Assembly: GCA_017936665.1 (NCBI GenBank)
Contig: JAGBFB010000018.1
Location: 62,001 to 126,000 of the forward strand
Direction of reading: 5' to 3'
Source of the DNA: Spirochaetaceae bacterium
GTDB lineage: Bacteria > Spirochaetota > Spirochaetia > Treponematales > Treponemataceae
Length of the DNA: 64,000 bases
The notes beneath the pieces are model-generated. The model saw only the letters and a list, made by a program, of their open reading frames with translations. It had not been told where the DNA came from and ran no database searches. Position 1 is the first letter of the stretch. Every line of letters begins with the position of its first letter. The translations under genes were made by a program, and so were the position numbers. Shown piece after piece: positions 37,345 through 38,353 of this stretch.

Positions 37345-38208
37345 ATGATAAATCTTGATACAATCATAAACAAAATTTTAATTTCTTACAATACCGAAGG
37401 TGGTGCAAATTTACAAGAAGAATATATTTTTCCAAACAGAGAAAATGTTGTTTCAGTTTTAAAGGACATTCAATCAGTAATTTTTCCTGGTTTTCACCAA
37501 GCTCAAAACATCGATAAAGGCAACTTGAAATATGTTACGGGCGAAAAACTAAGCCGAATTGCAAACATCCTTTCTAAAGAAATTGAAAAAGCTTTATTAT
37601 ACGCACTTCATGAAAATCCTGAAGAATGCAAAAACCAATCAGAAAAAATAACAGATTTATTTATAAATGAAATTCCACAAATACGAAAACTTGCATGTAA
37701 AGATGCAGAAGCTGCATTAAATGGAGATCCTGCAGCAAGAAGTATTGAAGAAATCATTTTATCTTATCCAGGTCCAGAAGCAATTTTAGTTTATAGAATC
37801 GCACATTTTTTACATATAAACAAAGTGCCAATTATTCCTAGGATTATGAGTGAATATATCCATGGAAAAACAGGAATTGATATTCATCCAGGAGCTGACA
37901 TTGGAGAATCATTTTTTATTGACCATGGAACTGGAGTTGTTATTGGAGAAACTTGTATCATCGGAAACAATGTAAAATTATACCAAGGTGTTACCCTAGG
38001 AGCTTTAAGTGTAAAAAAAGAAATGGTAGACAAAAAACGTCATCCAACTATAGAAGATGATGTTACAATTTATTCAGGAGCAACAATTCTTGGTGGAAAA
38101 ACAGTAATTGGGAAGGGAAGTACCGTCGGTGGAAATGTTTGGCTAACACAATCTGTCCCTGCAAACAGTACTACAATAGCAAAGCAAGAAACTTTAGCCC
38201 AGAAATAA
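37345..38208 (+). CDS. cysE: Serine O-acetyltransferase (CysE/EpsC type)
   Basis: A 287-residue enzyme that makes O-acetylserine, the precursor of cysteine, from serine and acetyl-CoA. The N-terminal half is helical; the C-terminal half is a left-handed beta-helix of hexapeptide repeats (IDIHPGADIGESFFIDHGTG). His194 in the DHGTG segment corresponds to the catalytic His of the family. The segment LYQGVTLGALSVKKE is typical of the EpsC-like group. No cysK is adjacent. GGAG lies 5 nt before the ATG. Confidence 0.93.
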   Translation: MINLDTIINKILISYNTEGGANLQEEYIFPNRENVVSVLKDIQSVIFPGFHQAQNIDKGNLKYVTGEKLSRIANILSKEIEKALLYALHENPEECKNQSEKITDLFINEIPQIRKLACKDAEAALNGDPAARSIEEIILSYPGPEAILVYRIAHFLHINKVPIIPRIMSEYIHGKTGIDIHPGADIGESFFIDHGTGVVIGETCIIGNNVKLYQGVTLGALSVKKEMVDKKRHPTIEDDVTIYSGATILGGKTVIGKGSTVGGNVWLTQSVPANSTTIAKQETLAQK

Positions 38209-38321
38209 AAAAAAGAACGCCCCCCCCCACGCTATATAATACTTATACAAGTGGGGAGCAGGAAGCGCCGTTCGGAAATCCGAACATCGGAGAGAGTTTA
38301 TCAGATTGTTTCCAATCTGAT
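38209..38321 (-). ncRNA. Candidate small RNA gene, about 110 nt, antisense side of the cysE 3' end
   Basis: A promoter (38325-38353) would start transcription near 38318-38321. The RNA opens with a 9-bp hairpin capped by GAAA (ATCAGATTG/CAATCTGAT). A second hairpin follows (GTTCGG/CCGAAC, loop ATTT). Last comes GCTCCCCAC pairing with the G9 run, followed by C, G, TTC and eight T near 38209-38216, a terminator. No ORF fits. I compared it mentally with 4.5S, 6S, tmRNA and RNase P RNA motifs and found no match. It may be new or lineage-specific. Confidence 0.55.
38220..38228. repeat. Homopolymer run of nine C (nine G on the minus strand)
   Basis: Nine consecutive C lie 11 nt after the cysE stop, in an otherwise AT-rich gap. 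They pair with GTGGGG at 38251-38256 on the same strand, so they form part of a hairpin. Such runs are prone to slippage. Confidence 0.9.
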
Positions 38322-38324
38322 TTC

Positions 38325-38353
38325 ATACTACACCTATTGATTTTTATTGTCAA
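38325..38353 (-). promoter_or_regulatory. Sigma70-type promoter for the candidate small RNA
   Basis: Minus strand TTGACA (38348-38353), 17-bp spacer, TAGTAT (38325-38330). No protein-coding gene follows on this strand before the cysE 3' end, so it needs a different product. Confidence 0.6.

Follow-up and report, generated by a model that had tools for sequence, protein, structure and literature searches.

On the minus strand of the window (the whole stretch of 64,000 nt that was analysed), an unannotated gene for a small non-coding RNA runs towards cysE and comprises a promoter, two hairpins joined by an unpaired linker, and an intrinsic terminator whose stem forms a third hairpin (Table 1). 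A gene of this kind, with a promoter and terminator of its own, had been proposed in the sequence-only reading, and relatives in 194 of 274 genomes together with base-pair covariation (see below) bear the proposal out. The TTGACA-17-TAGTAT promoter, the 6-bp second hairpin, the GC-rich stem with its G9 tract and the eight T that this reading had listed were all located as described. The GAAA-capped hairpin of 9 bp with which the RNA was thought to open stands in part: at the DNA level the sequence is present (AUCAGAUUG-GAAA-CAAUCUGAU, 38321-38300) and 9 bp could form if transcription started further upstream, but the start favored below leaves 6 bp in the RNA.

Table 1. Features of the small RNA locus, with the matching sites in a phage contig
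Feature	Coordinates	Strand	Remark
Small RNA gene as a whole, promoter through terminator	38207-38353	minus	
-35 box TTGACA	38348-38353	minus	consensus TTGACA over 125 copies
-10 box TAGTAT	38325-38330	minus	17-nt spacer to -35 box
Small RNA, ~110 nt	38207-38318	minus	probable start ~38318; end inside T-run
Hairpin 1, AGAUUG-GAAA-CAAUCU	38303-38318	minus	from fold
Linker GAUAAACUCUCUCCGAUG, unpaired, probable pairing site	38285-38302	minus	from alignment A1 and unpaired probability
Linker core AAACUCUCUCC, 11 letters	38289-38299	minus	invariant block in A1
Hairpin 2, GUUCGG-AUUU-CCGAAC	38270-38285	minus	from fold and covariation
Hairpin 3, GC-rich terminator stem	38216-38269	minus	from fold; contains G9 tract
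T8 terminator tail (U8 in RNA)	38207-38214	minus	covers AA of cysE stop codon
cysE (serine acetyltransferase), convergent neighbour	37345-38208	plus	TIGR01172 E 3.6e-49, below curated cut-off
Phage sites (three)	L270:9370-11240 (IMGVR_UViG_3300031993_000106)	opposite to small RNA sense	

The minus strand folds at -47.1 kcal/mol, compared with -28.2 +/- 3.5 kcal/mol for shuffled sequences (z -5.3; 0 of 200 shuffles as good), and a covariance-model match covers 38210-38323 of the window (66.9 bits). The linker core has a mean unpaired probability of 0.96, and its single match at up to one mismatch within the 64 kb is the locus itself; the linker as written ends on the first G of hairpin 2. The G9 tract, at 38220-38228, could vary in length between cells or reflect assembly uncertainty.

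Taken alone, this anatomy would be unconvincing because the promoter pattern by itself occurs at chance level in the AT-rich DNA (20 such sites in 4.5 kb, compared with 18.2 expected), and it is conservation that lifts the promoter above chance. The core occurs in 125 distinct stretches, a small number of them by chance. Their consensus boxes are TTGACA and TATAtT; 116 of the stretches have a 17-nt spacer, and in 98 the -10 box and the hairpin-1 arm are 6 nt apart. Bases 5' of that arm are unconserved in alignment A1. The constancy of the 6-nt distance suggests that transcription starts where hairpin 1 begins (~38318), in which case hairpin 1 would have 6 rather than 9 bp in the RNA and the linker would be left unpaired. 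The claim that no protein could be made from the RNA also held up, as relatives keep no reading frame (lengths of the 3' part modulo 3 divide as 18/15/14). A small peptide was rejected because these lengths are spread over the three frames and variants lack the ATG of GATG.

Conservation and distribution of the family

Alignment A1 consists of 47 diverse copies, from which RNAalifold returned three hairpins. Cells of the paired columns are paired in 94.0% of cases, compared with 78.4% in shuffles, and double compensatory changes occur in 19 of 26 base pairs, so that the covariation in relatives sought by the sequence-only reading is present. The covariation score is 0.511, compared with 0.215 in shuffles, none of 500 of which reach it, and falls to 0.12-0.15 when the partner is slid by one column; the rows were collected by similarity and, as relatives, do not count as independent observations, yet the slid controls fall far below the observed score. 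In hairpin 1 the window copy has replaced a C-G pair of the family consensus AGCUUGUAAAUAAGCU by A-U, with both sides changed (columns 10/22). Five of seven pairs covary in hairpin 2, and the terminator stem, in which the window copy is divergent, covaries at every pair in relatives. At the apex of hairpin 3, most A1 copies carry AGYGUURCU, a GUU triloop closed by a covarying C-G/U-A pair, which is lost in the window copy.

The linker forms an invariant block in A1, and its core is near-invariant; in a further alignment (A2), assembled by core search, core invariance arises by construction, which is not fully so in A1 and the matches of the covariance model R1. The hairpin sequences vary while the linker is kept (variants L181-L195). 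Variants of one genus, g17 (L187-L189), differ in the hairpin-1 stem (GGCCAC/GUGGCU or GAACCA/UGGUUC), and their terminators contain tracts of G11-G14. A subfamily with the linker AAACUCUCUCCUUUAG lies directly downstream of an Hsp20-like gene (L181-L183, L192, L193), which suggests a second conserved context. The core is the part that these variants retain.

A plain DNA search matched 185 of the 274 Treponemataceae genomes, whereas R1, built from A1, matched 194 (~70%), among them 94 of 128 high-quality genomes, in 11 of 20 genera. In some genomes the RNA occurs two or three times, with unrelated neighbours. No R1 match is listed outside the family (searched: 394 genomes in the order, 296 in the phylum), and none was obtained in G031, in g14 or in the other two genomes of the window's own genus, both incomplete drafts (74% and 87% complete). 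At the two closest cysE loci (L018, L019) the next gene follows directly after cysE; together with the two congeneric drafts, this indicates that the RNA is widespread but losable. A broader model (R2), restricted to eight pairs, recovered no convincing copy from the genomes that R1 had left unmatched (best E 0.006).

The RNA does not correspond to a known family. An Rfam 15 scan of the window returned one tRNA only, and a scan of the region at E<=10, the check that the sequence-only reading had proposed, gave five sub-threshold chance matches, none near the gathering score. The dissimilarity to housekeeping RNAs noted in that reading was likewise upheld: the 4.5S (small SRP) RNA of this genome, RF00169, lies at G000:C33:6618-6715 (70.2 bits), with no such match at the small RNA locus, and this identity was rejected. 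No Treponema small RNA of the same kind was found in the open-access literature. Judged by conservation at the sequence level, this is a real, new and lineage-restricted small RNA family, previously uncatalogued.

Complements of the linker in host and phage genomes

Elsewhere in the genome, a long complement of the linker was found nowhere except inside the ispE coding sequence, where the single other site within one mismatch of CGGAGAGAGTTT lies. The cysE start regions contain no linker complement, and the cysE leader was rejected as a target on that ground. Perfect copies of GGAGAGAGT before an ATG were not enriched over the control in ten genomes (4 vs 5). A looser 14-mer search gave 22, 27, 20 and 12 hits in four genomes, compared with 7, 18, 9 and 16 in the reversed control; the excess in three of them can be explained by ordinary ribosome-binding sites, since the 14-mer contains GGAG and ATG, and the genes hit did not recur between genomes. 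Host targets, if any, would therefore pair over a short stretch, and short pairing stretches are common for small RNAs.

Scanning IMG/VR with 19 letters of hairpin 1 and linker identified one 54-kb contig (L270) with three copies within 2 kb, situated between small phage ORFs; neither the small RNA promoter upstream nor the terminator was present at these sites. Read as phage mRNA, the pattern is CGGAGAGAGUUUAUC, usually a hairpin, AAGGAG(G), and then AUG. Three relatives recognized by terminase similarity (L277, L278, L279) add four sites, so that four related phage contigs carry seven complements to 15 linker letters, six exact and one with one mismatch, compared with none in the reversed-sequence control. 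Each site lies 7-14 nt after a stop codon, and six are followed within ~50 nt by a Shine-Dalgarno sequence and ATG before tiny ORFs; at the first L270 site the next ORF is 142 nt away. The hairpin stems differ among the sites, and the 15 letters persist. Other viral linker hits (L271-L275) fall inside coding frames, as do most of 80 loci picked out when 108 stretches were scanned for a leader-like pattern.

The L270 sites are predicted to form duplexes of -50 to -57 kcal/mol with a typical family RNA (L036), compared with shuffled means of -22 to -30 kcal/mol. For the other phages, whole-leader energies are slightly better than shuffles or not better, and the argument there rests on the exact 15 letters, whose duplex alone amounts to -23.9 kcal/mol. 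Some sites complement hairpin 1 of the small RNA as well as the linker. In some leaders (the L270 sites and L278), the bases that precede CGGAGAGAGUUU, for example AAACUC, are able to pair with GAGUUU; GGA then lies in a loop and might be a CsrA-type site.

The closest relative of the phage terminase is that of a Tetrasphaera phage (37%), and any link of the contigs to treponeme hosts is putative. The sites could represent a sponge, a co-opted regulator or a target. Carrying in their leaders an exact linker complement that adjoins a hairpin and a ribosome-binding site, early-type phage mRNAs might read the host small RNA, whether as a sponge, as a switch for the phage's own genes or as the object of silencing by the host, a suggestion that we make tentatively and would sooner doubt than assume. 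A phage switching its own genes through the RNA would be a bacterial counterpart to virus use of a host small RNA.

Mode of action and relation to known systems

The gene combines its own promoter, an intrinsic terminator, absence of coding capacity, conserved structure and a conserved accessible pairing region, as expected of small RNAs of this kind. We consider it likely that the product is a stand-alone, trans-acting, base-pairing RNA with an anti-Shine-Dalgarno-like linker. RNA polymerase with the main sigma factor would start near 38318 and produce an RNA with a 5' hairpin from +1, the exposed linker, a second hairpin and the terminator. Kept single-stranded by the hairpins on either side, the CU-rich linker would then pair in trans with purine-rich sequences of the G(G)AGAGAG type in mRNA leaders, and this pairing would alter the translation or stability of the target mRNA.

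The same observations could be accommodated in a few other ways. First, the linker or loops could titrate an RNA-binding protein with no mRNA pairing involved, a reading in keeping with several copies per genome and with the failure of our searches to find a host mRNA partner. We regard it as unlikely, given that the reverse complement of the linker occurs in phage mRNA leaders, an arrangement that favors pairing over a protein site shared on RNA, and that the hairpin loops keep no conserved GGA motif.

Second, the RNA could act in cis, as an antisense RNA or as a shared 3' terminator element for cysE. At 47 of 80 cysE loci it is indeed convergent, ending -22 to +211 nt from the cysE stop, and the sequence-only reading had it end over the stop codon and run antisense to the cysE 3' end. 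The former is correct insofar as the T-run touches the two A of the stop codon, but the rest of the RNA is clear of cysE; the latter does not hold across the family, as no conserved overlap with the cysE mRNA was found (few loci overlap, by up to 22 nt). Paralogues far from cysE keep linker and promoter, many genomes have cysE and lack the RNA, and in the complete genome G053 the RNA is retained next to a NusG-like gene that flanks cysE elsewhere, while the acetyltransferases that the cysE model matches there score weakly (best E 3.5e-6). These observations, with no linker complement at cysE starts, make action in cis quite improbable, and convergent placement explains the position of the RNA and not its function.

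Third, host locus and phage could share a protein-binding site at the DNA level, with RNA structure incidental, as the opposite orientation of the two sets of copies to transcription might suggest; the odds of this are slimmer still, because the locus has the hallmarks of an RNA gene, with covarying stems in hairpins 2 and 3, a terminator, and a promoter whose distance is fixed, and because the phage sites follow a stop codon and precede the start region that comes next. Finally, the hairpins could be due to chance or the RNA could be a known housekeeping one (4.5S, 6S, tmRNA, RNase P), but both readings can practically be dismissed: the chance-level promoter pattern would agree with the former, but conservation with covariation refutes it, and the lack of an Rfam match and the 4.5S RNA found elsewhere speak against the latter.

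A trans-acting, pairing RNA of this design has a close parallel in layout in Yfr1, a cyanobacterial small RNA of 54-69 nt with two hairpins and the invariant 11-mer ACUCCUCACAC (PMC2190773, PMC6778093). In both, hairpins flank an unpaired stretch of 16-20 nt with an invariant CU-rich 11-mer and a U-tail terminator follows; both are near-universal in one lineage, and the Yfr1 motif is common to a second family (Yfr10), as the linker is to the Treponema variants. However, the Treponema core is AAACUCUCUCC, its RNA has three hairpins and ~110 nt, and it is confined to a single spirochaete family and known from sequence. Membership in Yfr1 was rejected because the defining 11-mer is absent; most likely the Treponema RNA would work like trans-acting small RNAs of the Yfr1 type while not being one of them. 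The LhrC family of Listeria (PMC5880928) is broadly similar in consisting of multi-copy siblings with CU-rich single-stranded stretches, although it belongs to a different phylum and Rfam reports no sequence match.

For the spirochaete phylum, a 2022 survey counted 6 distinct small RNAs (PMC9029176), so that a lineage-wide candidate with a clear pairing module is of interest where few are annotated, and it can be tested, since cultured commensals carry it, among them Treponema bryantii (L042, L051, L061), a rumen species that is not pathogenic and has two copies. The phage link, if true, would tie a conserved host small RNA to phage gene control through a defined 15-nt interaction. Its nearest precedent is AgvB, a phage-encoded anti-sRNA against GcvB (PMC4104026), where phage sequence likewise mimics a target and is complementary to the seed of a host small RNA; AgvB is a free-standing phage small RNA, whereas the complements of the Treponema linker lie in phage mRNA leaders, where their effect is putative.
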